Virus record (IMG/VR): IMGVR_UViG_3300010158_002025
Location: 1 to 24,403 of that record
DNA: 24,403 bases
Strand: one strand, 5' to 3'
Origin: a virus
How positions within the stretch are numbered: position 1 is the first letter of the stretch; each line of letters starts with the position of its first letter. The position numbers and the translations under genes are program-made. This document shows positions 6,990 to 21,266 of the stretch, piece after piece. Under the pieces are notes generated by a model. It worked only from the letters and a program-made list of their open reading frames with translations. It was not told the DNA's origin and did no database searches.

Positions 6990-7421
6990 ATGGCTGCCAT
7001 TGACGCTGCTCTCGTAAGTAAGATCCTGAATGCTACGTCACCTACTGGTACTGGTGGTGTCCCCGGTACGGCTTTGACTGCGCTTACTGCTGCGGCCATG
7101 AAGGTGCGTTTAAACTCAACATTGTCTACCGCGTCAGCGGCTGGTACTGAGATCACGGGTGCGGGTTACACCGCTGGTGGTCAGTCACTTTCCGCTGCAA
7201 GCGCGGCCTCTTCAGCCGGATCGAACGTGACGTTGCCTACTACGACAGCCTTGTCGTGGACGAATGGTTCTGGTGGTCAGTGGTCAATCGTGTCTTTCGA
7301 TCTGACTGATAGCACTGGTGTGCGTACTTGGTGGGGACCTTTCAATGGTCAGCCCGTTCTTGTTGCTAACGGTAATACGTTCCAGATCGCCGTGGGTGGC
7401 ATCACCCTCCAACTTACCTAA
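6990..7421 (+). CDS. Small structural protein (143 aa)
   Basis: It begins with ATG two bases after the preceding stop; GAAGGGAAC overlapping the end of the 43-aa gene serves as ribosome site. The N-terminal 45 residues are Ala/Thr-rich and helical; the rest alternates in a beta pattern (QWSIVSFDLTDSTGVRTWWG, VLVANGNTFQIAVGGITLQL). This kind of small beta protein right after the capsid in actinophages is usually a head decoration or minor tail protein. There is no signal peptide or membrane segment. Function is inferred from position only. Confidence 0.6.
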   Translation: MAAIDAALVSKILNATSPTGTGGVPGTALTALTAAAMKVRLNSTLSTASAAGTEITGAGYTAGGQSLSAASAASSAGSNVTLPTTTALSWTNGSGGQWSIVSFDLTDSTGVRTWWGPFNGQPVLVANGNTFQIAVGGITLQLT

Positions 7422-7971: not shown

Positions 7972-10779
7972 GTGCCAGCGTTTACACCCACTAGGGGTGT
8001 TCCCGTTGGGTTGAAACCACCGTTCGGTCGGCCTAATCTTCCACAACCAGCCTCTCCAGTTAAACTCGTCCAGTCTAATTCGGTTGGCTTTGACCAAGGT
8101 CCAAGTCCGACTTATTGGACTTCAATCTCGCTGCCGAAGCCGCCAACGGCGGGAAATCTGCTCGTCATTGTTGCAAGTTTGAACTACGGTTTTCCTACTC
8201 CAAGTGGTTGGACTACGGTCACAGCAAGCCAGTCAACGGTGCTTGCGAAAGTATCAGTGGGCGCTGCCGATCAGACGTTCACAGCCGTAACGGGGTATTT
8301 TACTGCTGCGCTTTCTTACGTCGAACTATCTGGCGTATCGCTTGCTGGGTTTTCTGTAGTTAACTCAGGTGCCATTAACACGTTGACTGCTCCTGCGGGT
8401 AGTGTTGTTATTTCCGTTGTTGATTATCATGATGCGGCCGCTAGCGGGGGTCAGCCTCCGTACCCCAGCGCGTATACGCCTGATGGGATGCTGTCACTTT
8501 ATAAAGGCTGTTACTACGTTAATGGCATAGATAACGACGATTCGTACATAGCATCTGCCGGTATCGCATTCCCCGACACCGCAACAACGTACTGGACTGG
8601 CGTTGGTGCCACGCGCACCTTGGCATCCACTGGCTCATGGACAGATGCTGGCCAGACTAATGGCCTGATCGCTTACTTCCCAGCGGGAACGAACAGCACA
8701 ACGGTTAACGGTACTGCAACTGCGACAGGTGCCGGTGCTGCAACTAACAGCAACATCATCGTTAACCCGTCAGCACGATCAGTCGGTGCAGGATCAACTT
8801 CTCCTACGGGACAAGTTAACTTCGCTACCAACCCAAGCCTTGAGGCTGGTACTACGGGTTGGACGTGGCAGCAACAAACCAATGGTGCTCCCGCAACTGT
8901 TAGCCAAGGTTCCACTCTTCCTGTTGATGGACAGTTCACTGCTGTAGCCAGCATCACTGGTACTCAAACTATTGCCACTAACCATGGCATGAGTATCAAC
9001 GGTGCTACTCCTGCTGGAACTATCGTTCCCGGTCTCCCGTACACGTTTAGCGTGTATGTGAAACCTTCTCGAACGAACGTGTTCTTGATGGGTGTGGACT
9101 GGGTTGGTGCGGGTGCTTCCGCTACGTCCACGGCTACGACGGCTAATGCTGGCGTATGGACTCGTCTTACTGCATCGGGTACAGCACCTGCTGGTTCGAC
9201 AAACATTAACGTCAACATTTGGACTAATACGGCTGGTGGTTCTGTCCTCTGGCAGAACCTTGACACGATCACTTACGATGCGTTCCTCGTAGAACAATCA
9301 GCATCTCTGAATGCTTACCCGATCGGGACGAAACCTGTCCAAGGAACCCTTGGTAGTACGGCTATTGGTGCTGGGTCTATCCCCACTGCGACTGGTTCTT
9401 CTGTCTCGGGTGGATCAACTGGTACAGCAACTGGTTTAGGCCAGATAACGGCTAACGCTACAACGGGTTCCACGGGTTCTAGCGTGGGTGTAGGACTTGT
9501 TACTGGTAACACGGTAACGGTAGCGACAGCGACCTCCACAGGGGCTGGAACAGCCACCTCTGGGTCTGCATCTAACAGTGCTGCAACACTCATTGGTGCT
9601 GGTCTTGTTACTGCACTATCTACAGTGTCAGCGGCTGCACCCGGTACGGGTGCTGGTGTAGCAACTGGTTTAAACAGTACGAGTGCTACAACTTCTGCGG
9701 TTGGTGCTGGTGTTGCTACCAGTGCAAGCCCACGAACGGTTGCTCCTGCTACATCGACTGGTGCTGGTGTTGCCAGCAACACGAACACTGTTACTTCTGC
9801 CACCGCTCTGGCAGTGGGTGCTGGGTCTGTCACTGCTAATACGAGCGGTTCTGCTTCTGGCACATCCACTGTCACTGGTGCAGGTACTGCTACTTCTAAC
9901 GCGGTAACCGTCGCTGGTTCCACTGCATCAGGTAGTGGTGTTGTAACGGCTGCCAGTTCGATTGTTGTTCTTGGATCTGCCACTGTTGTTGGTGCTGGCT
10001 CGGCTAGTAACTCTTCAGTCGCGTTGCGGTCTACTGCTACCAGCACTGGTGCTGGTGTGGCTACTGGACAGAACCTTAGTTCTGTTTATGGGGCTGCGAT
10101 TGTTTCGGGTCTTGGTGTAGCCACTGCGACTGGGACAACAACACAGGCTGTAGCAACTAAGTACATGTTCAGTGGGAGTCGGCAGTTCTTACAGGATCGT
10201 CTCTTCTTTAAGACTGGACCTGTCCACCAGTATTCGATCATTAAAAAGGGAACTGTTTACACGGAGAGTTCTTACCCAACGTCAGAAGATTATTCAACTG
10301 CTGACATGGTTTACCGGGGTGGGTTCACTTACGAAGTTTCCTACGATGAAGCACTCCGTTTATATGCTTCTGGTTACAGCGTGTCTGGCCTGTCTGCATT
10401 GCCAACGATAACGGGTACAGCATCTTCCAGTGGGTCTGGATCTATTTTGACCGGATCAACACTTGTTGCTTCTGGTTCTCTTACCGGGTCTGCATCTGTT
10501 TTGACCGGATCAACACTTGCTGCTTCTGGTTCTCTTACCGGATCTGGTGTCGCGGTTGCTATCGCTACCACGTCAACTCCGTCTGGCTCTTATACGTGGG
10601 GCACACCAGCAACGTGGGGCACTCCAACTACATGGGGTGGCTCATCTTCTGGTTCATCGTTTACATGGAGCAGCCCTGCTACATGGGGCACTCCATCAAC
10701 TTGGAGCAGTTCTTCGTCCAGTTCACCTTCTACATGGGCATCACCGTCTACGTGGGCATCACCAACAACATGGGGTTAA
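7972..10779 (+). CDS. Giant repeat-rich tail fibre / receptor-binding protein (935 aa)
   Basis: GTG start three bases after the previous stop. Visible modules: (1) residues about 30-245, a beta domain beginning SNSVGFDQGPSP with KPPTAGNLLVIVASL, a common phage adhesin start; (2) about 282-452, a carbohydrate-binding-like jelly roll (FATNPSLEAGTTGW, LPYTFSVYVKPS, WQNLDTITYDAFLVE); (3) about 460-723, some 14 copies of a ~19-residue GAG-x-A/V-T repeat; (4) about 729-808, a charged knob with the only basic and aromatic cluster; (5) an 18-residue repeat twice (LTGSTLxASGSLTGS); (6) a C-terminal tail with nine TW dipeptides (WGTPATWGTPTTWG type). This points to a long, flexible, surface-exposed fibre with sugar-binding ability. 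The role is inferred from architecture; no enzyme motif. Confidence 0.7.
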   Translation: MPAFTPTRGVPVGLKPPFGRPNLPQPASPVKLVQSNSVGFDQGPSPTYWTSISLPKPPTAGNLLVIVASLNYGFPTPSGWTTVTASQSTVLAKVSVGAADQTFTAVTGYFTAALSYVELSGVSLAGFSVVNSGAINTLTAPAGSVVISVVDYHDAAASGGQPPYPSAYTPDGMLSLYKGCYYVNGIDNDDSYIASAGIAFPDTATTYWTGVGATRTLASTGSWTDAGQTNGLIAYFPAGTNSTTVNGTATATGAGAATNSNIIVNPSARSVGAGSTSPTGQVNFATNPSLEAGTTGWTWQQQTNGAPATVSQGSTLPVDGQFTAVASITGTQTIATNHGMSINGATPAGTIVPGLPYTFSVYVKPSRTNVFLMGVDWVGAGASATSTATTANAGVWTRLTASGTAPAGSTNINVNIWTNTAGGSVLWQNLDTITYDAFLVEQSASLNAYPIGTKPVQGTLGSTAIGAGSIPTATGSSVSGGSTGTATGLGQITANATTGSTGSSVGVGLVTGNTVTVATATSTGAGTATSGSASNSAATLIGAGLVTALSTVSAAAPGTGAGVATGLNSTSATTSAVGAGVATSASPRTVAPATSTGAGVASNTNTVTSATALAVGAGSVTANTSGSASGTSTVTGAGTATSNAVTVAGSTASGSGVVTAASSIVVLGSATVVGAGSASNSSVALRSTATSTGAGVATGQNLSSVYGAAIVSGLGVATATGTTTQAVATKYMFSGSRQFLQDRLFFKTGPVHQYSIIKKGTVYTESSYPTSEDYSTADMVYRGGFTYEVSYDEALRLYASGYSVSGLSALPTITGTASSSGSGSILTGSTLVASGSLTGSASVLTGSTLAASGSLTGSGVAVAIATTSTPSGSYTWGTPATWGTPTTWGGSSSGSSFTWSSPATWGTPSTWSSSSSSSPSTWASPSTWASPTTWG
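9349..10140 (+). repeat. Degenerate in-gene repeat array (~19-aa GAG unit, ~14 copies)
   Basis: Protein repeats centred on GAG (variants GLG, GVG, GSG) followed by x-A/V-T and a Ser/Thr-rich stretch recur every 17-22 residues. At DNA level the shared core is GGTGCTGG plus T/G. Copies differ at many bases, so this is an old array held by selection on the protein, not a recent slippage product. It probably forms a regular beta fibre shaft. Confidence 0.75.
10445..10544 (+). repeat. Two-copy 54-bp direct repeat near the fibre C-terminus
   Basis: A unit beginning TTTTGACCGGATCAACACTT starts at 10445 and again at 10499 (period 54 bp, 18 codons), with very few differences over about 43 bases. The near identity indicates a recent duplication, unlike the older GAG array. 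It encodes LTGSTLxASGSLTGS twice. Confidence 0.8.
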
Positions 10780-10782
10780 ACA

Positions 10783-12255
10783 ATGGCTTACCAACGTGTC
10801 ACGTCAACCGACTCTTTCACCACTGGGGCAACTGCCGCGACGACAGTCATCAACGCTATCGAGGTTGGCGTAGAAGCCCTAGAGGCTGCTATTTCCCCCT
10901 CCACGACCTTTCCCAGCGCGACCACGACGGGTTACGGTTCAACATCTCTGACAGCCACAACTGCTGGTGCTCTGAGCATTGTTAACAATGCAACGTTTAC
11001 AGCCTTGGACATTACCGGTCAGGTAACGATCCCCGGTGGTGTTACGGGTGTCACGTTCACGAACTGTCGCATCACGGGTAGCGTCAATTATGGTTTGTAT
11101 GTTTCGTCTACTGCCTCGGTGACACTCCAAAACTGTGAGATTACTGGACCAACAAACAACTACAACGGTGCGGCTCTAGCCGGTGCTGGTAGTGGTGCCG
11201 TGGTAGTTAAGAACTGCAAGATTTGGGGTTACGAGGATGGCATCAAGCCATCTTCCAACTGGACAATCCAAGACAATTACATTTACGACCTTGCCAATAA
11301 CAACGTGCAAGTCCAGTCGATCTCTAACACGTCAGGCTCAACGTGGCGTTACGTGGTTGCTCCTACCGCTCTAGGTACAGCGATGCCATTCGCTGCCACG
11401 AACTCGGTTGTTGTCTCTGGTTGTACGGCAAGTGGTAACAATGGAACGTTTACAGTCACAGCAGTTGGTTCCAACTATTTTGAGGTAACAAACGCTTCTG
11501 GTGTAGCACAGGCTACGGCTGCCGGTTCTGCTGCTAACTCACACTGTGACGGCATCCAGATCCAGACTGGTGTCAGCAATGTCATCATTAACCACAATAC
11601 GATCATCGCCCCAACCACCCTGCTGGGTGTCACGTCAGCGGTCTTCGTCTCCCCTGACATTGGACCTGCCGGTCCCGGCCCTGTGACCATCCTGAACAAC
11701 TACCTGTCAGGTGGTCCGTACACGCTGATCATCGTGGATGGCAACAACGGCCAGTACCACACCTCGGGCCTATCGGTCATCAACAATACGTTTGTCAACA
11801 ACTCCATTAACGGTCCAACTCGTATCACTGAGCCAAGCCCATACTGGAACGCTTGGTACGGCAACATTTACACTGACAAGACTCCTGTCAGCCCCGGTGT
11901 CCTGACCGCATTGCAGCAAACCTCGATCAGCGGTTGGTTGTCGCCAGCATTCAACGCATCGTTTACACCTAACTGGCGTGACGGTAGGACAACGAACGTT
12001 GGTGTGCTCACCGCTGCAATCACGATTAACGCACCAACGAGCAACCCCGGTTACACCTCAACGATCCCTTCGGGTACGCAGATGACGTTCCTGCTGACGC
12101 AGGATGCAACGGGTGGTCGTGCTATTACGTGGAACGCAATTTTCTTACGCTCAACTTCTCTAGCCGCATCGGGCACAGCAAGTCAGCGTGCCTCCATCTC
12201 ATTCGCTTGGGACGGCACCAACTGGGTTGAGACCGCTGTCTCACCATGGCACTAA
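10783..12255 (+). CDS. Tailspike with right-handed beta-helix (pectate-lyase-like)
   Basis: The protein has 490 residues. The N-terminal 70 residues form a head-binding or trimerising part. Residues about 75-345 carry successive beta-helix coils ending in N-C/N-x-I motifs (NCRITG, NCEITG, NCKIWG, DNYIYD, HNTIIA, NNYLSG, NNTFVN), typical of parallel beta-helix tailspikes that bind or cut surface polysaccharide. A small inserted domain lies near 205-245. The C-terminus (about 400-490; FLLTQDATGGRAITWNA, FAWDGTNWVE) matches a capping domain common in phage fibres. A cluster of Asp/Glu on the helix (for example EDGIKP, HCDGIQ) could be catalytic. Depolymerase activity is plausible but unproven; it may only bind. 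The ATG lies four bases after the previous stop, behind GTTAAACA. Confidence 0.8.
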   Translation: MAYQRVTSTDSFTTGATAATTVINAIEVGVEALEAAISPSTTFPSATTTGYGSTSLTATTAGALSIVNNATFTALDITGQVTIPGGVTGVTFTNCRITGSVNYGLYVSSTASVTLQNCEITGPTNNYNGAALAGAGSGAVVVKNCKIWGYEDGIKPSSNWTIQDNYIYDLANNNVQVQSISNTSGSTWRYVVAPTALGTAMPFAATNSVVVSGCTASGNNGTFTVTAVGSNYFEVTNASGVAQATAAGSAANSHCDGIQIQTGVSNVIINHNTIIAPTTLLGVTSAVFVSPDIGPAGPGPVTILNNYLSGGPYTLIIVDGNNGQYHTSGLSVINNTFVNNSINGPTRITEPSPYWNAWYGNIYTDKTPVSPGVLTALQQTSISGWLSPAFNASFTPNWRDGRTTNVGVLTAAITINAPTSNPGYTSTIPSGTQMTFLLTQDATGGRAITWNAIFLRSTSLAASGTASQRASISFAWDGTNWVETAVSPWH

Positions 12256-12269
12256 GGGGTAATGTAAAC

Positions 12270-12611
12270 ATGGCGCTCGGTGATAATTGTAGAAGTGGAT
12301 GCCTCACACGCGACCATGCAACGTGGGGTGAGTGTGCTCGTCACGCTTCTCTACGTGTTGGTTGGGCAGCATCAAGTAATGGTGGCTACTCGCTACGTGG
12401 GGAGAAGTTGCATGAGGCTGAACTGAACGCTTACGCACAGGCCCGACGTGACGGTTTGCAGCCTGCTGCTACCACGCAGAAAGCAGTGAACGAAGCGTAC
12501 CGGGCTTCTGAGTTGATCGGTAAGCCTTACAACGCTGACACGATGCCACCTACTGCGGCTATCCCTAACCAGAGGACAGCGACCGTGGCCACTCAGGCAG
12601 GGATGCTATGA
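12270..12611 (+). CDS. Cys/His-rich small protein of actinophage type (113 aa)
   Basis: I prefer ATG 12270 to the in-frame ATG at 12246: the latter lies inside the previous gene, while 12270 has AAGGGG upstream and the TGTAAAC spacer seen at other starts here. The N-terminus (residues 6-24, NCRSGCLTRDHATWGECARH) has Cys-x3-Cys-x4-His-x5-Cys-x2-His, a possible zinc site. Then comes WAASSNGGYSLRG and a helical region (about 40-85). I remember similar NCxSGCxTxDHxTWGECAR proteins among structural genes of actinophages, function unknown. The stop overlaps the next start (ATGAG), which ties it to the adaptor-like protein. Confidence 0.7.
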   Translation: MALGDNCRSGCLTRDHATWGECARHASLRVGWAASSNGGYSLRGEKLHEAELNAYAQARRDGLQPAATTQKAVNEAYRASELIGKPYNADTMPPTAAIPNQRTATVATQAGML

Positions 12612-15512: not shown

Positions 15513-15788
15513 ATGTATACGACTCCAACAATAATAAATGCACTCAATGATTACGGGGGTGTACTCATTGTTCTCATTACCATCATCACGTCTTTCGCCG
15601 CTGCTGGACGCTACCTCGTTATGCGTCCACTTATGAGCGAGATTGAAAGACGCACATCACAGATTCAACCAAACGCTAACGGCGGTCAATCACTAAAAGA
15701 CCTACACGGTCGTGTGGACCGTATCGAACGCCAGTTAGACCTCGTAATCGAACACTTAATAAAGGATGAGGATGATCCCCAAGATTAA
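15513..15788 (+). CDS. Small membrane protein with coiled coil (holin-like or DUF2746-like)
   Basis: It has 91 residues. One membrane helix lies at about 14-33 (GGVLIVLITIITSFAAAGRY), followed by a basic stretch and a C-terminal amphipathic coiled coil (SLKDLHGRVDRIERQLDLVI). This form (short N-terminus out, one helix, cytoplasmic coiled coil with GxSLxDxxxRxxRIExxL) is common among actinophage small membrane proteins near lysis genes. It may be a second holin, an antiholin or a Rz-like partner. Start four bases after the fibre stop; its end overlaps the next gene. Confidence 0.65.
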   Translation: MYTTPTIINALNDYGGVLIVLITIITSFAAAGRYLVMRPLMSEIERRTSQIQPNANGGQSLKDLHGRVDRIERQLDLVIEHLIKDEDDPQD

Positions 15789-16620
15789 AGCAGTAGCGTT
15801 TACATCCGGTACTGTGCTCGGCCTCGCAATCATCGGTGCTGTCCAATCAGCCGGTGCCACAGACTCCGCTCCACTCCCCCCTGATACGAACCTTGAGACC
15901 GCTCCCGACGTGAGCGTCACCACGAACACGTCCGTGTACGTGCGGAACCCAACCTTGTCTCTTGTTACTTCCTCAGATAAGAGCGTTGTAACTGCTGGGT
16001 CAAAGATCACGTACACGTACACGTTGAAGAACACGGGCAACACGGATTACAGCAACATACGAATCACTGATGACAAATGCTCACCGATCACTGGGCCTAC
16101 TGGGAATGATGCTGACCCAAACTTGAACCAAGGAGAAGTGTGGGTTTACAAATGCAGCACGACAGTCCTCAAGGACCAAACGAACGCCGCAACGGTGAAA
16201 GCCACTCCGGTCATATCGACTGCTGCCCCGAGTGCTTCGCCTACACCATCTGTGTCTCCAAGTGCCACTACTTCTCCTACACCAACCGTGATCAAAGACG
16301 GAACTTGGGCGGGTAGTGCTCCAATCAACGTGGCCGGTGAGGGAATCCAATACCAGATCGGTCTGTCAGTTACGACTCTCGGTGGGAAGATCACGGGGAT
16401 CACTGTTCCCACGTTCACTGCTGCTGATCCGACATCGAAGTCGATTGGCAAGTTTTATGTTTCAACAACTCCCAGCATGAACAATGCTGGCAATGGGACT
16501 TTGATCGACGAGGCTGTCGGCGGGTCCATCAGCAACGTAGCCACGGTCAGTGGTGCCACGTACACCAGTGCAGGCTTCCGGTCTGCTCTCCAATCCGCTC
16601 TCTCGCTTGCTTCTGCTTAG
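15772..16620 (+). CDS. Secreted DUF11-like plus FMN-binding domain protein
   Basis: I chose ATG 15772 because AAAGGA lies six bases upstream; the ATG at 15766 is too close to it. Numbering here starts at 15766. Residues 1-32 are a signal peptide (Lys-rich start, hydrophobic FTSGTVLGLAIIGAV, likely cut after SAGA); no lipobox Cys. Residues about 58-150 form a DUF11-type beta domain (SKITYTYTLKNTGNTDYSNI) with two Cys (DKCSP, YKCST), probably a disulfide. A Ser/Thr/Pro linker covers about 152-175. Residues 177-284 match an FMN_bind domain: DGTWAG, YQIGLSVTTLGGKITGI, and SGATYTS with T265, the residue ApbE flavinylates in this family. FMN_bind proteins carry electrons outside the membrane. Such a gene inside a phage lysis cassette is unusual; host origin is likely. 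Role unknown: redox, adsorption block or host surface change. Confidence 0.8.
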   Translation: MIPKIKAVAFTSGTVLGLAIIGAVQSAGATDSAPLPPDTNLETAPDVSVTTNTSVYVRNPTLSLVTSSDKSVVTAGSKITYTYTLKNTGNTDYSNIRITDDKCSPITGPTGNDADPNLNQGEVWVYKCSTTVLKDQTNAATVKATPVISTAAPSASPTPSVSPSATTSPTPTVIKDGTWAGSAPINVAGEGIQYQIGLSVTTLGGKITGITVPTFTAADPTSKSIGKFYVSTTPSMNNAGNGTLIDEAVGGSISNVATVSGATYTSAGFRSALQSALSLASA

Positions 16621-16631
16621 GAGATGTAAAC

Positions 16632-16865
16632 ATGTCACAATTTTGGGAATCCATTCCCGCACCGATCCGAACAATCATTAACGTCGTTGTGGGTGCAGCG
16701 TTCGCCGCTGCTGTCTCATATGTGATTGGGAACATCTCAGGTGGAACGATCGACCTGAACGCTCTCGGTCAGGCTGTCCTCATTGCTGCGGGTACTGCTC
16801 TCGTCCGTGCTATTAATCCGGCTGACACTGCTTACGGTGTCGGTTCGAATCCTGAGGGCATCTGA
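16632..16865 (+). CDS. Holin
   Basis: It has 77 residues with two hydrophobic segments: about 13-34 (RTIINVVVGAAFAAAVSYVI) and about 45-62 (LGQAVLIAAGTALVRAI), then a short polar tail (ADTAYGVGSNPEG). Size, Ala-rich helices and the position directly before the endolysin (TGATG overlap) fit a phage holin that opens the membrane at the end of infection. AGGAGA and the TGTAAAC spacer lie just before the ATG. Whether the second segment fully spans the membrane is uncertain. Confidence 0.75.
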   Translation: MSQFWESIPAPIRTIINVVVGAAFAAAVSYVIGNISGGTIDLNALGQAVLIAAGTALVRAINPADTAYGVGSNPEGI

Positions 16866-17644
16866 TGCCAGCGAGTATAAACGGGTGGGCTGTCCTGAAT
16901 TGGGGAGATCCACGCCTGAAAGAGATCGTCGTACCGGGTACGAAGATTAAACTGTCTATGCGGAGTGTGGCGGCTCCTTTGTTCGCTGCGTTGGCTGCTG
17001 ACTATCACAAGACTGTTGCCCCGCTGCGCCCTAAAGAAGTGTGGTCGCATGATTACCGTCCAGCGAGGGCTAGTGCATCGTGGTCGGATCATTCGTCTGG
17101 GACTGCCATTGACTGCAATAGCGCCCATGAGGGCGCTCAGGGACCGCATGGTGGTATGAGCACTATGTCATCCGCTCAGATCGCAGCGTGTGTCGCATTG
17201 AAGAAGAAGTACAAAATCATTATTTGGGGTGGGGATAAGAGACGCGGTGGCGACTACGTTGCCAGTCGTAATTGGGACCCCATGCACTTCGCTTTGAAGC
17301 CGGGTACGAGCATCGCTCAGGTTGAAGCAGTCATCAAGGAACTCGGCATCCGTCCTGACGGGACTGTTGCCCCTGCGTTTAAACCTGTCAAGGTTCCTAC
17401 GAAGCCTTCAACGAAACCAGTCCACGTACCCACGATCCCGGTTTTCCCCGGCAAGTTCAGTGTTGGTACTAAGGGCGATCACGTTAAGGCAATCCAGAAG
17501 GGCCTAGGTCTCACACCTAGTGGCGTATTCGATCCGGCAACTGTTGTTGCTGTGAAGCGGTATCAACGTTTACACATCTCATTGTGGCCTTTTGATGGTG
17601 TTGTTGGACCGAAGACGTATAAGGCTCTTGCTCGTCCCGTCTAG
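16865..17644 (+). CDS. Endolysin: M15 peptidase with peptidoglycan-binding domain
   Basis: It has 259 residues. Residues about 10-160 are an M15-type zinc peptidase (VanY / L-alanyl-D-glutamate peptidase group): SDHSSGTAIDCN gives H76 and D83, and DPMHFAL gives D138 and H141, the metal ligands and catalytic acid of the family. A Lys/Pro-rich linker (about 171-195, KPVKVPTKPSTKPVHVPT) joins a PG_binding_1 repeat (198-256; GTKGDHVKAIQKGLGL, GVFDPATVVAVKRYQ). No signal peptide, so release depends on the holin whose stop overlaps this start. It cuts the stem peptide of the wall at lysis. The domain calls are firm; the exact bond is inferred. Confidence 0.9.
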   Translation: MPASINGWAVLNWGDPRLKEIVVPGTKIKLSMRSVAAPLFAALAADYHKTVAPLRPKEVWSHDYRPARASASWSDHSSGTAIDCNSAHEGAQGPHGGMSTMSSAQIAACVALKKKYKIIIWGGDKRRGGDYVASRNWDPMHFALKPGTSIAQVEAVIKELGIRPDGTVAPAFKPVKVPTKPSTKPVHVPTIPVFPGKFSVGTKGDHVKAIQKGLGLTPSGVFDPATVVAVKRYQRLHISLWPFDGVVGPKTYKALARPV

Positions 17645-17657
17645 GAAGGACTAGCCC

Positions 17658-19577
17658 ATGGCTGGATTTGATATTACCGAAAGGCCGGTAATCAACCTTT
17701 CTACTGTGGTTGGTTCGGCCTACTTCCCGTCAGATGCCGCATGGGATTGTTCCATTGGTGGCTTGCCTTTCATGTTTGCTACGGATCAGACTCGGACGAT
17801 GGACCGGGCCACGTCTCAGTTCCGTCGCCAACGTATCGACCAAGAACGTGACCCCGGTGAGAACTCGCTAGATCAGGGTGTGTGGCTGAGGTCTGTTGCC
17901 TCTGGTCATTATGGTGCTGGTCAGCGTGCTGTGGAATCTTTGGAAGTTGATCCGAAGGTTGCCCGGTTCCGGTTCTACCGTTCAGCGAACGTTGATGTGT
18001 GGACTGCTGGATCGTTCACTCTTGCTAAGAGTGTTTCAACGTTGCGTTCTACGTCTGCTACTTCCCAGTATTCGGTGGGTATCGGTTCCACTAATGGTGT
18101 GTTACATGTAACGGATTCCAGCCTGTCTCAGGTGACTCCATCGGGAACGGTTAACGCTGTTTCTTTGACGGCTGCGACCGGTAACATCCTGTCACTCACC
18201 ACTGATGGCACAAACTACTACGCTGCTACGGCAACCAACATTTGGAAAGGCACCTTGCCCACGGGTACGGGTGTGAAGATGTTGACTGCTGATTATGCGG
18301 CCACGTCTAGCAGGGCTTTGGTTCGCTGGGTTAAGCAACGTTTGATGACGTGTGTAAACAATTCTATTTACGAGTTGAACCCTTCATCAACCACACTGAC
18401 TTCTGCTGGAACAGGGTGGGACCACCCGAACACTGCATGGGTATGGACAGGTATCGCTGATGGCCCCGGTGCCATCTACTTCTCTGGCTACGCCAATGAT
18501 GTGTCGGCTATCTATCGGACAAGCATCACGTCTAGTGCTGGCACGGTCTCTCTAGCAGCCCCCGTGGTTATCGCTGAGATGCCCCGTGGTGAAAAGGTAC
18601 TGAATATCTACTCGTACCTTGGCAATTATCTGGCTATTGCTACCAGTTCGGGTATTAGAGTAGCGGAAATCGCTGCTGATTCGACTATTACAGTAGGCCC
18701 AATCATCGTCTACACGGCTGGTGGAGCCTACGATTTCGTAGGCGTTGACCGTTACCTGTACGCAACTGGTGGTACAGATACGACTGCTCTGGATGGGTCC
18801 AGTGCTCCCGGTATCTACCGTATTGACTTGTCTGTGGACGTTGAGAAGTATCGGTACGCTTACGCTCAAGAGGCTTACGGTTCTGGTAGCAGTGCTCCAT
18901 CTTCTGTGACCTACTCAGGGTCTCAGGTGTATTACACGGTTCCCGGTTTCGGCCTGATCGCTCAACCTCAAACAGTTGCTTATGCAACTGACGGGTGGAT
19001 TGAGTATGGACGTATCAACTATTCAACTCAAGAACTCAAAGCATGGCGGTCTATCGTTCTGCGTGCTGACGTACCCACGGGTACGACCATTGAGGTTCAT
19101 GCGTCTACGACTGGTACGGGTAACCCGTCTACGTGGGTGAACATTGGCACGTTAACTTCATCGGCTACTGATGGTGAGTTCTCACTGTCTGCCCCTGCAC
19201 CAAACCCGACGAGGGATCTGTACGTGGCTCTGCGTCTAACGGGTACTGGGTCTGCTCGGCCTACTGTAAACGCGATGAGTGTGCGTGCGTATCCTGCGCC
19301 AAAGCGTACTCGGATCGTGCAGGTTCCTTTGCTGTGCTTCGACCATGAGCGTGACCGCAATGGCATGGTTCGTGGGTATGACGGTGGAGCGTGGGACAGG
19401 TTGTCTGCTCTGGAGTCTGCGGAGGATCTTGGCTCTGTGATTACGTGGCAGGACTATACGTCTGGTGAGAACCGTGCTGCTCTTATCGAGCAGTTGTCGT
19501 TTACACGTACTACTCCCCCGTCTCGGGAGAAGGACAATGTTGGTGGTGTGTTGATGGCAACGTTGCGGTTGCTCTAG
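17658..19577 (+). CDS. Minor tail protein, probable beta-propeller (639 aa)
   Basis: AAGGA sits upstream of ATG 17658. After an N-terminal part (DRATSQFRRQRIDQERDPGE, RAVESLEVDPKVARFRFYRS) come repeating beta blades of the kind NILSLTTDGTNYYAATATNI, VLNIYSYLGNYLAIATSSGI and YDFVGVDRYLYATGGTD, about 45-60 residues apart. The C-terminal third is a beta-sandwich (IEVHASTTGTGNPSTWVNIG) and ends DNVGGVLMATLRLL. The pattern recalls actinophage minor tail proteins, and also propeller-like nozzle proteins of podoviruses. It lies after the lysis genes, as some tail genes do. Last gene before the convergent terminators. No enzyme motif is seen. Confidence 0.7.
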   Translation: MAGFDITERPVINLSTVVGSAYFPSDAAWDCSIGGLPFMFATDQTRTMDRATSQFRRQRIDQERDPGENSLDQGVWLRSVASGHYGAGQRAVESLEVDPKVARFRFYRSANVDVWTAGSFTLAKSVSTLRSTSATSQYSVGIGSTNGVLHVTDSSLSQVTPSGTVNAVSLTAATGNILSLTTDGTNYYAATATNIWKGTLPTGTGVKMLTADYAATSSRALVRWVKQRLMTCVNNSIYELNPSSTTLTSAGTGWDHPNTAWVWTGIADGPGAIYFSGYANDVSAIYRTSITSSAGTVSLAAPVVIAEMPRGEKVLNIYSYLGNYLAIATSSGIRVAEIAADSTITVGPIIVYTAGGAYDFVGVDRYLYATGGTDTTALDGSSAPGIYRIDLSVDVEKYRYAYAQEAYGSGSSAPSSVTYSGSQVYYTVPGFGLIAQPQTVAYATDGWIEYGRINYSTQELKAWRSIVLRADVPTGTTIEVHASTTGTGNPSTWVNIGTLTSSATDGEFSLSAPAPNPTRDLYVALRLTGTGSARPTVNAMSVRAYPAPKRTRIVQVPLLCFDHERDRNGMVRGYDGGAWDRLSALESAEDLGSVITWQDYTSGENRAALIEQLSFTRTTPPSREKDNVGGVLMATLRLL

Positions 19578-19917: not shown

Positions 19918-20139
19918 TTATGGTTGTGGGGGTAGTTCAATCTTGACGAACTCCTGTTTCCTCTTGCGTGTTTCTGGCCTGACACGGGCGAACGCTTCGT
20001 CCACAGGGACCGACGAGCGGCACCTACCGCACATGTCTACGACACCACCACGACCGTTGATGTCGATTACAACTGTGAATACGTTGTCTTCACGCTGGTC
20101 GATGTCACACACCAGCCGGTTTACAGTAGCCATTCTCAT
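19918..20139 (-). CDS. Small CxxC protein coupled to the integrase (73 aa)
   Basis: The start ATG overlaps the integrase stop (ATGA), so it is translated from the same transcript. A beta pair (VFTVVIDINGRGGVVDMCG) leads to Cys-x2-Cys (CGRC), then a Lys/Arg-rich helix (ARVRPETRKRKQEFVKIE). The N-terminal part faintly recalls Lsr2-like or small zinc-binding phage proteins, and there is another Cys (LVCDID) upstream. Excisionase/recombination directionality factor is a reasonable guess from its location and basic C-terminus, but no winged-helix is evident. Function not established. Confidence 0.55.
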   Translation of the reverse strand: MRMATVNRLVCDIDQREDNVFTVVIDINGRGGVVDMCGRCRSSVPVDEAFARVRPETRKRKQEFVKIELPPQP

Positions 20140-21155
20140 CTCGCAATCTCCACAACAGTGGCATCTTCGTGACTCAACGATGGGAACATGACGTTCCCAG
20201 ATATCATTTCATTCCTCTGCGTACGCTCAAGGCTAAGCCCAATGTAGCGTTCCGTTACCCGTGTGTCCTTGTGTCCTAACATTGAACTGACACGCATTAA
20301 CGCTCCGTCGTATCCCTGATCACGGAGAGTATCGAAGAGTGCCCGACTCCCACTTCGTCTCAATGTATGTTCGCCCTCGCCCAGAGGGTCGTAGCCCAAC
20401 ACAACCAGCGCCCTCTGAACGGATCGGTATGGGTGAGACACCTTCCGCGTCGGACGCAATGGTGCTAACTCACCTGACACTTCAATGCGATGGGTGACAG
20501 GGTTGTATCGTGTTGGGTTTGGAGCCTTTGATGGGATTAGATACCATTCGTGGCGTAAGTGTGGTGTGTTCTGGTTTGTCCTGTACCACCGGAAGTACCG
20601 TTCAAACTCAGCGGCCAACTCAAGTGATACCGGTAGCACATCTTCTTCTTGTGTCTTGTGCCTATAGATATTCAATTCGTACCGCTCAAGGTTGAGAGCA
20701 CTGATCTGCAAGGTAGCGATCTCTCCCCCTCGCAAGAACGTGTAGATCCCAAGAGCACACAGCATCCGATCCCGTGGGTGTTTACACGCATCGAGTAGTG
20801 CTGGGAACTCAGCCAATGGCAGGCGCATCTTGTCTCGCCGTGGCACGGTCAGGTTGTTCCACCCAGCCGTGGGATCGAAGTCACGGGCCATGTAGTTCTC
20901 ACGCCTACACCACTGGAAGAACGAGCGCAGGTTGCTGAGGTACAGGTTCCGTGTGCTGGCGACCCATGTGGCTCGCCGGAACAGTCGGTCTATGTGTGAT
21001 CCGGTGATGGCTGAGATGCGTACATCTCCCCACTCTTGTTGAGCAAGGTTCAACACTTGCATGTGGTTCTTGATTGTGGACTTTGATAACCCTCGGGCTG
21101 TCAGGTGTCCACGGTATTCGGCTTTCGCTTCGATCAGGTTCATTGCTCTGGGCAT
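20136..21155 (-). CDS. Tyrosine recombinase integrase
   Basis: I chose the ATG at 21155 because GAGGGAG lies just upstream on the minus strand; the ATG ten codons earlier has none. The protein has 339 residues. Residues about 5-95 are a SAM-like core-binding domain (GLSKSTIKNHMQVLNLAQQE, TRNLYLSNLRSFFQWC). The catalytic domain has R142 (FLRGGEIATL), K167 (RHKTQEE), H263-x2-R266 (EHTLRRSGSRALF), H295 (MLGHKDTRV) and Y304 (TERYIGL), a complete tyrosine-recombinase set. It should integrate the phage at an attachment site; a tRNA-like core lies about 85 bases from its start, the normal attP position. Opposite orientation to nearly all other genes marks the lysogeny module. Confidence 0.93.
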   Translation of the reverse strand: MPRAMNLIEAKAEYRGHLTARGLSKSTIKNHMQVLNLAQQEWGDVRISAITGSHIDRLFRRATWVASTRNLYLSNLRSFFQWCRRENYMARDFDPTAGWNNLTVPRRDKMRLPLAEFPALLDACKHPRDRMLCALGIYTFLRGGEIATLQISALNLERYELNIYRHKTQEEDVLPVSLELAAEFERYFRWYRTNQNTPHLRHEWYLIPSKAPNPTRYNPVTHRIEVSGELAPLRPTRKVSHPYRSVQRALVVLGYDPLGEGEHTLRRSGSRALFDTLRDQGYDGALMRVSSMLGHKDTRVTERYIGLSLERTQRNEMISGNVMFPSLSHEDATVVEIAR

Positions 21156-21208
21156 GTTCGCTCCCTCATAGGTAGATTGGAACATGACACACCTTACACT
21201 ATGACCTG

Positions 21209-21235
21209 CACAACATGCAACAAGTGCATGTTGTG
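21209..21235. other. Perfect 11-bp inverted repeat beside attP
   Basis: CACAACATGCA (21209-21219) and TGCATGTTGTG (21225-21235) with 5-base spacer ACAAG. No T-run. It lies between the integrase start and the tRNA-like core, so it is a good candidate for an arm-type, Xis or repressor binding site. Confidence 0.6.
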
Positions 21236-21266
21236 TTGGCTAGGGTTCAAGTCCCCCCCCGGACAC
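21236..21266 (+). other. Candidate attP core (tRNA-Leu 3' end-like)
   Basis: GGGTTCAAGTCC is a T-arm with loop TTCAAGT (21246-21252). The following CCCCC, CCCGGAC and A would be T-stem, acceptor strand and discriminator A73; the matching 5' acceptor would be GTCCGGG, which from memory fits actinobacterial tRNA-Leu. No D-arm or anticodon arm precedes it, and two outer T-stem positions (TA) do not pair, so it is not a whole tRNA gene. Adjacent to the integrase, it is most simply the phage half of a tRNA attachment site. The C-run (8) is notable. Confidence 0.65.

Follow-up and report, generated by a model that had tools for sequence, protein, structure and literature searches.

The known redox genes of phages work for the most part within the cell or in photosynthesis. 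Among described bacterial systems, the actinobacterial MsrQ-like system combines a PF01794 reductase with an NAD domain, an FMN_bind protein, and ApbE; according to the available text of PMC8238504, this cluster type is broadly conserved in Actinobacteria and some of its clusters are linked to iron reduction. FMN_bind domains also occur in NqrC and RnfG, which are subunits of cation-pumping complexes, and in SaFMN3 of Streptomyces azureus, whose source protein is described as a covalent flavoprotein in the available text of PMC10339131. The acceptor motif of ApbE substrates is [S/T]GA[S/T], which in its canonical form includes an Asp (D-x-x-[S/T]-G-A-[S/T]). In the available text of the review PMC12052999 this Asp is called strictly conserved, and its replacement by Ala in one enzyme is said to have had minor effects only. 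The phage protein described below is proposed to be an exported single-flavin electron carrier with which a phage equips its probably actinobacterial host, a reading to which a probability of roughly 60% is given.

The window, that is, the whole stretch of DNA analysed, is a 24,403-nt IMG/VR record. On its plus strand, an ORF running from the ATG at 15772 to the TAG at 16620, with a second in-frame ATG at 15766, encodes a protein of 282 aa, here called the shuttle for short. Its assignment as a gene for an exported DUF7507-FMN_bind flavoprotein (15772-16620) is based on the ORF itself, on Pfam and NCBIfam profiles, and on homologues in other phages. A reading made earlier without database searches (the sequence-only reading) had placed the gene at these coordinates and a flavin-accepting Thr at codon 16558-16560; both were confirmed by the ORF and the sequence. 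A chance match is excluded, since the profile scores are joined by near full-length homologues in other phages.

The N-terminal 29 residues (15772-15858) form a probable export signal, cleavable at SAGA/TDS, as judged from the hydrophobic segment and a by-eye alignment of five phage homologues, in which a signal-like N-terminus with an Ala-containing end is followed by a conserved SxPxPxD. The hydropathy script found a single hydrophobic segment, residues 5-25. The first Cys of the protein is residue 103, and therefore it has no lipobox, a feature of PplA-like lipoprotein shuttles; the earlier proposal of an exported, non-lipidated protein agrees with these observations. Residues 59-158 (15946-16245) form an Ig-like domain with two invariant Cys, which matches DUF7507 (PF24346) with 37 bits against a cut-off of 27 and the NCBIfam DUF11-type repeat TIGR01451 with 28.1 against 24. 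As an assignment to a DUF11-type domain the sequence-only reading was right, but DUF11 itself (PF01345) remained below its cut-off (17.3 vs 24.6). A Ser/Thr/Pro-rich linker follows at residues 149-174 (16216-16293), overlapping the end of the Pfam DUF7507 match. The predicted FMN_bind domain (PF04205) occupies residues 195-278 (16354-16605) and was borne out by the profile, with 29.7 bits against a cut-off of 22 for the protein and 33.2 bits when scored from the DNA at 16354-16605.

The putative flavinylation motif, SGATYTS (16549-16569), contains the predicted acceptor Thr263 at 16558-16560. SGAT is present in all five aligned phage homologues, in which the longer SGATYT is invariant, and SGAS is found in the FMN_bind protein of another contig (G688). 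The motif had been called complete; SGATYTS is indeed there, but the canonical Asp is missing: each of the five phage proteins in the alignment has an Ala at this position, three residues ahead of the Ser. In seven bacterial relatives with GATYTS or GATFTS the residue there is D, D, Q, Q, H, N, and V, so that the Asp is not universal among them either. The change from Asp to Ala is nevertheless the main molecular caution for flavinylation.

The closest solved relative is PDB 8p2a, SaFMN3 domain 2, which was matched by the FMN_bind domain in phmmer (E 5.5e-4) and by a profile of nine rows, two from phages and seven from bacteria (alignment A3), with an E of 8.6e-25. Based on the same nine rows, a model of the domain shows three strands and three helices; its mean pLDDT of 59 indicates modest quality, and the whole-protein prediction from a single sequence was unusable (pLDDT 33.6). 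The top Foldseek matches of the domain model in the PDB were 8p2a and 3o6u (probabilities 0.90 and 0.85, E 0.07, the best being 0.067). The model, though weak, agrees with the NqrC-like fold expected from sequence.

Two further contigs of 32,627 bp (G001) and 44,389 bp (G002) are 99.9% identical to the window and encode the shuttle with 99% protein identity. Both ends of G002 are joined by the window and likewise by G001, through an almost exact overlap of 152 bases, and therefore the genome of the window phage is probably closed at about 44.2 kb; no exact terminal repeat was found in G002. The window differs from G002 at 20 positions, of which 14 lie in scored CDSs and 6 outside the scored list, and two of the 14 change an amino acid, both in the shuttle gene (S182N, I253T). 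There are 22 differences from G001, with the same two changes and an A614V in the protein at 7972-10779. These within-species counts are too few for any conclusion.

Outside the window species, homologues are carried by a 70-kb genome and by a low-GC group of 48-95-kb contigs. The former (G687; 70,410 bp with exact 123-base terminal repeats) is probably a siphovirus, since a 2047-aa frame is taken to be its tape measure, and its homologue shares 45% identity and the same domain layout with the window protein. The low-GC homologues have the same layout in G689 (50,127 bp, 48% identity), G690 (48,134 bp, 49%), and G693 (78,922 bp, 48% over residues 26-280). In G692 (95,487 bp) the gene is cut by the contig end and comprises only residues 26-191, and this accounts for the missing FMN_bind match. 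G688 (38,424 bp) encodes a shorter exported FMN_bind protein without a DUF7507 match; a short, export-like, S/T/P-rich protein stands directly before it (L117:2614-3111). FMN_bind scores were above the cut-off of 22 in G687 (24.8 bits), G689 (30.6), and G688 (25.2), and DUF7507 scores lay above the cut-off of 27 in G689 (28.6) and just below it in G687 (26.2). The gene, whose absence from related phages would have pointed to an assembly artefact, is present both in two contigs of the same species and in different phages.

At E 1e-4, the proteins common to G687 and the window are the shuttle (45%), the endolysin (33%), and one small protein (59%), together with partial matches of the 490-aa protein at 10783-12255. 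Since the two share so few proteins, the shuttle gene has either moved between phages that otherwise differ or been kept in them. The small protein, at 6990-7421 of the window, has the highest identity among the full-length proteins shared with G687. Directly upstream of the shuttle gene in G687 lies a gene for an export-like, Rpf/transglycosylase-like protein (43845-44378; L094:6749-7282), with a Pfam score of 15.4 bits against a cut-off of 27. A papain-like peptidase is encoded directly downstream of the shuttle in G687, G689, G690, and G693 (L094:8272-9111 in G687; L118:8444-9331; G690 11526-12455; G693 73185-74033), assigned to phrog_16701 in the two scanned and by sequence in the others, and it may act together with the shuttle.

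The Ig half and the FMN half are equally conserved, both with a mean pairwise identity of 64%. In five phage proteins, 33 of the 90 DUF7507 columns and 41 of the 108 FMN columns are invariant, and Cys103 and Cys128 are invariant in the five aligned homologues. Purifying selection acts on the shuttle in the three pairs tested among G689, G690, and G693, with dN/dS values of 0.130, 0.118, and 0.144 (Nei-Gojobori method, own script). A tree built from 17 FMN domains unites the five full-length proteins from phages (93/95) and sets G688 apart, most other forks being weak; an insert in the FMN domain is common to the five phage proteins and missing from the bacterial rows.

The sequence-only reading had judged such a gene to be out of the ordinary for a phage, and this impression was reinforced by the phage databases. 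PHROGs version 4 holds no family for the window protein, at E 0.1, or for the three homologues scanned, the best match of the nine A3 rows being at E 0.035, in two rows. Neither the window protein nor the G689 homologue has a match in 50,697 phage records. Viral-contig scans with alignments A1 and A2 found only the window species, and it was scans with bacterial-type rows (A4, A6) that found the other phages; the homologue counts given here are lower bounds because homologues are easily missed by such scans. Two bacterial FMN_bind queries (E 1) matched five and eight records of the phage collection. In each case one record was that of a Lactobacillus phage and contained a fumarate reductase, and the rest were unannotated contigs from faeces titled 'Bacteriophage sp.'; these were judged to be host DNA and set aside.

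In the low-GC group, the shuttle is accompanied by a ferric-reductase-like protein. A 435-aa protein encoded in G689, 4.1 kb upstream of the shuttle on the same strand, matches Ferric_reduct (67.6 bits), FAD_binding_8 (28.9), and NAD_binding_1 (29.7), all over cut-off, and the same holds for all three copies scanned out of the five (G689, G692, G693). A single-protein scan of viral contigs placed this reductase in at least five contigs, with 72-100% identity. Three of five reductase contigs have FMN_bind by profile (G689, G690, G693); of the other two, G692 breaks off within the shuttle gene, after its first part, and G691 is a fragment of 11 kb. The reductase gene lies 1.8-4.3 kb upstream of the shuttle frame in G689, G690, G692, and G693. 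His79, His93, His157, and His170 are invariant in five phage and three bacterial reductases, and so is a further His, His263 of the sequence HPYSLS. With spacings of 14 and 13 residues, the paired His residues have the arrangement of bis-heme ferric reductases. The phage reductase shares 38% identity with an Acidimicrobiaceae protein, has only eight partial matches in the phage collection, and gave no PHROG match in the two copies scanned. A tblastn search with two reductases (E 0.1) found none in the window species, G687, or G688. The earlier idea of an altered host surface redox chemistry is much strengthened by these genes, as related phages encode a reductase that matches the shuttle.

The low-GC contigs are phages, probably with actinobacterial hosts, because G692 also encodes a portal, a head protease, a virion protein, DnaB, and a ribonucleotide reductase and G689 carries a WhiB gene. 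In G692, G689, and G690 a gene for a ferritin-like (Dps-type) protein is situated some 3.5 kb away from the reductase gene; the G692 copy is at 85697-86146 (L141:5697-6146; PF00210, 54.9 bits), and the other two were identified from their sequence alone. This gene suggests an iron or oxidative-stress theme.

No ApbE (PF02424) was detected by Pfam in any of five records (G000, G001, G002, G687, and OX376640). For G688-G693 weaker tests gave the same outcome: our own two-row profile, one row of which has an untrimmed N-terminal part and which is weaker than the Pfam test, matched none of 633 frames of nine records, and tblastn returned nothing at E 0.1. The nearest match at E 1 was 26% over 89 aa (E 0.70) in G001 and G002. 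Since these tests revealed no phage ApbE, the flavin would have to be attached by a host enzyme. In bacteria the corresponding genes occur side by side: the whole order reductase - FMN_bind - ApbE is present in two MAGs (L010/G003 and L014/G005), reductase and FMN_bind occur in L015, and FMN_bind is followed by ApbE in G004. A sample of 396 genomes from the G003 phylum contained FMN_bind in 125; judged by motif, many of the top loci look RnfG-like. Our own family profile matched 53 of the 396, with one half or the other among the matches listed, apart from two weak exceptions that run from the Ig half to the start of the FMN half (43-216 and 67-207). A separate search gave matches in 33 of 297 genomes; a single weak one, located in a frame of 3759 aa, extends over 21-263. 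Among the matches listed, there would appear to be no clear bacterial copy of the DUF7507-FMN_bind fusion.

The window phage is judged to be temperate because it carries a tyrosine integrase gene on the minus strand (20136-21185; phrog_1, E 1.4e-32) and an attP-like site. The latter, at 21243-21266 and adjacent to the integrase gene, is likely the attP core; it resembles the 3' end of actinobacterial tRNA-Leu genes, with one base different per match. When one mismatch is allowed, a 23-base pattern taken from it is matched by 35 of 396 genomes of the G003 phylum; none of them has it exactly, and the reversed control gave no match. Of eight matched loci fetched, five were scanned with ARAGORN, and all five were named tRNA-Leu; the 24-base core aligned with the tRNA in three of them, the other two being reversed. 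A perfect 10-base inverted repeat with a 5-base loop (21210-21234) just before the core might act as a terminator or bind a recombination protein. The resemblance of the core to tRNA-Leu 3' ends points to an actinobacterium as the host, which would probably belong to the phylum-level group of G003. Proteins with 29-31% identity to the one at 17658-19577 (phrog_11667) occur in 29 Streptomyces phage records, and the identity reaches about 33% in records OX376640 and OX376641. The first of these two is matched to phage LanE43-AprE7, which was isolated on 'Ca. Planktophila' strain LanE-43 according to the available text of PMC10202952.

From what is observed, namely the domain architecture, its conservation across phages, the selection in three pairs, and the histidines and cofactor domains of the reductase, we infer flavinylation, electron flow, an acceptor, and a benefit to the phage along the following lines. 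The shuttle chain would be exported and then cut by signal peptidase. The DUF7507 Ig-like domain and the S/T/P linker may serve as a spacer that carries FMN_bind into or beyond the cell wall, and host ApbE would attach FMN to Thr263. The bound flavin could then be reduced by an MsrQ-like, ferric-reductase-like membrane protein, in which electrons would pass from NAD(P)H to FAD and on to two hemes. The window phage, and presumably also G687, would draw on a reductase of the host, and the low-GC phages encode their own, upstream of the shuttle and on its strand. Finally, the flavin would pass its electrons to an extracytosolic acceptor, most plausibly Fe(III), because of the ferritin-like gene of three contigs and the link to iron reduction in the literature. 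In its widest form, this scheme suggests that a trans-envelope chain for electron export is encoded by phages whose hosts are probably actinobacteria. Made up of an NAD(P)H-FAD-bis-heme reductase and a host-flavinylated, Ig-spaced shuttle, the chain would divert reducing power of the host to extracytosolic acceptors, for example Fe(III), in infection or lysogeny; the window phage would have a minimal version that uses host reductase and ApbE. The odds on this wider scheme are about even.

The equal conservation of the two halves also bears on another reading, in which the protein is a cell-surface factor working via its Ig-like domain, for adhesion or for superinfection exclusion in lysogens, and FMN_bind is a structural or regulatory add-on. 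Such a surface factor would suit a temperate phage, and the matches of the Ig half in actinobacterial genomes are mostly in large frames of several hundred to more than 4000 aa. An add-on is, however, hard to reconcile with a Thr and an SGATYT motif that are invariant in five homologues and with an FMN half as conserved as the Ig half; in addition, the shuttle is linked with a reductase in the low-GC phages, and the FMN_bind protein of the G688 phage has no DUF7507 match. The surface-factor reading is therefore considered unlikely. The possibility that the contigs carry a misplaced bacterial gene through mis-assembly or mis-binning arises because IMG/VR contigs are metagenomic and G002 lacks an exact terminal repeat; it is nearly negligible, given three near-identical contigs of which two bridge the ends of the third, the exact terminal repeats of G687, the portal, protease, virion protein, and replication genes of G692, and sampled bacterial genomes that, among the matches listed, match one half or the other, bar weak, partly overlapping matches.

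The genes around the shuttle in the window, all on the plus strand, raise two other readings. A small membrane/coiled-coil protein (15513-15788; phrog_1009, E 5.6e-4) overlaps the shuttle gene by 17 bases. A putative holin with one hydrophobic segment (16632-16865) starts 11 bases after it, and is called so by position, no holin profile having been matched in Pfam or PHROGs; it is followed by an endolysin with M15 peptidase and PG_binding_1 domains (16865-17644; Pfam and PHROG profiles). With such neighbours the flavoprotein could serve in the timing of lysis or in envelope energetics, acting on the proton motive force or the quinone pool and thereby helping to trigger the holin. The sequence-only reading had set the gene within the lysis cassette, and this does not hold in general: in G687 some 10 kb separate the gene from that of the endolysin, which is on the opposite strand, and in G690 the distance is some 7 kb. 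Moreover, ToriToki and LanE43-AprE7 share the 17658-19577-type protein with lysis genes adjoining it (annotated holin; by sequence), and neither whole record (the latter OX376640) has FMN_bind. The lysis-cassette placement is particular to the window phage, and a role in lysis timing is quite improbable. A virion-surface flavoprotein, another of the earlier ideas, is more doubtful still: in the window phage the gene does have late genes around it, with large virion-looking ones close by, but all five proteins of the alignment have the hydrophobic, export-like N-terminus, four of them as judged by eye, and in G687 the gene is on the strand opposite to the head/tail region, most genes of which were judged by size and order. 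The single-flavin carrier remains the preferred reading.

In the literature searched, the terms FMN-binding or flavinylation with phage gave no report of phage-borne flavinylation, which is limited evidence as few subscription papers were covered. In the same literature, phage-encoded ApbE led to nothing beyond a proteome study of E. coli, phage-encoded extracellular electron transfer to nothing on the subject, and ferric reductase with auxiliary metabolic genes only to the giant-virus review PMC9270025. The word 'phage' is not mentioned in the main texts of PMC8238504, PMC12052999, PMC11334425, and PMC10339131, nor 'FMN' or 'flavin' in the available text of the freshwater phage study PMC6802176. 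All of the components are known already, and it is their combination in phages that appears to be new. The shuttle represents a phage gene family without a match in PHROGs version 4, and may link phages to iron redox chemistry. If the proposed reading is true, the outer face of the cell envelope joins the metabolic sites taken over by phages.

Compared with the described systems, the phage shuttle resembles the actinobacterial MsrQ-like system (PMC8238504, available text) in its FMN_bind protein, its export signal, and its S/T-rich linker, and the low-GC phages match the reductase architecture of that system too. It differs in being phage-encoded, in its extra DUF7507 domain, in the insert in its FMN domain, in the Ala for Asp of its motif, and in the absence of a detected ApbE. 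Ferric reductases borne by viruses are already reported in the giant-virus review, whose available text mentions no flavinylated shuttle beside them, and giant viruses infect eukaryotes. The best viral structural match, with a probability of 1.00 and 30% identity, is A0A6J5KPU6 in BFVD, an 'FMN-binding' protein by name from an uncultured Caudovirales phage; it has 171 aa and therefore probably lacks an Ig-like domain, unlike the 282-aa protein. NqrC and RnfG have the FMN_bind fold, which is predicted for the shuttle, and share its [S/T]GAT acceptor motif, with weaker matches to the A3 profile; they are subunits of cation-pumping complexes, and no Nqr or Rnf partner genes were noticed among the phage frames listed. 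SaFMN3, which contains the closest solved FMN_bind domain (8p2a) and has the SGATYTS motif in common with the phage protein, is described in the available text of PMC10339131 with three flavin sites and a predicted membrane sequence, whereas the phage protein combines one site with an Ig-like domain.
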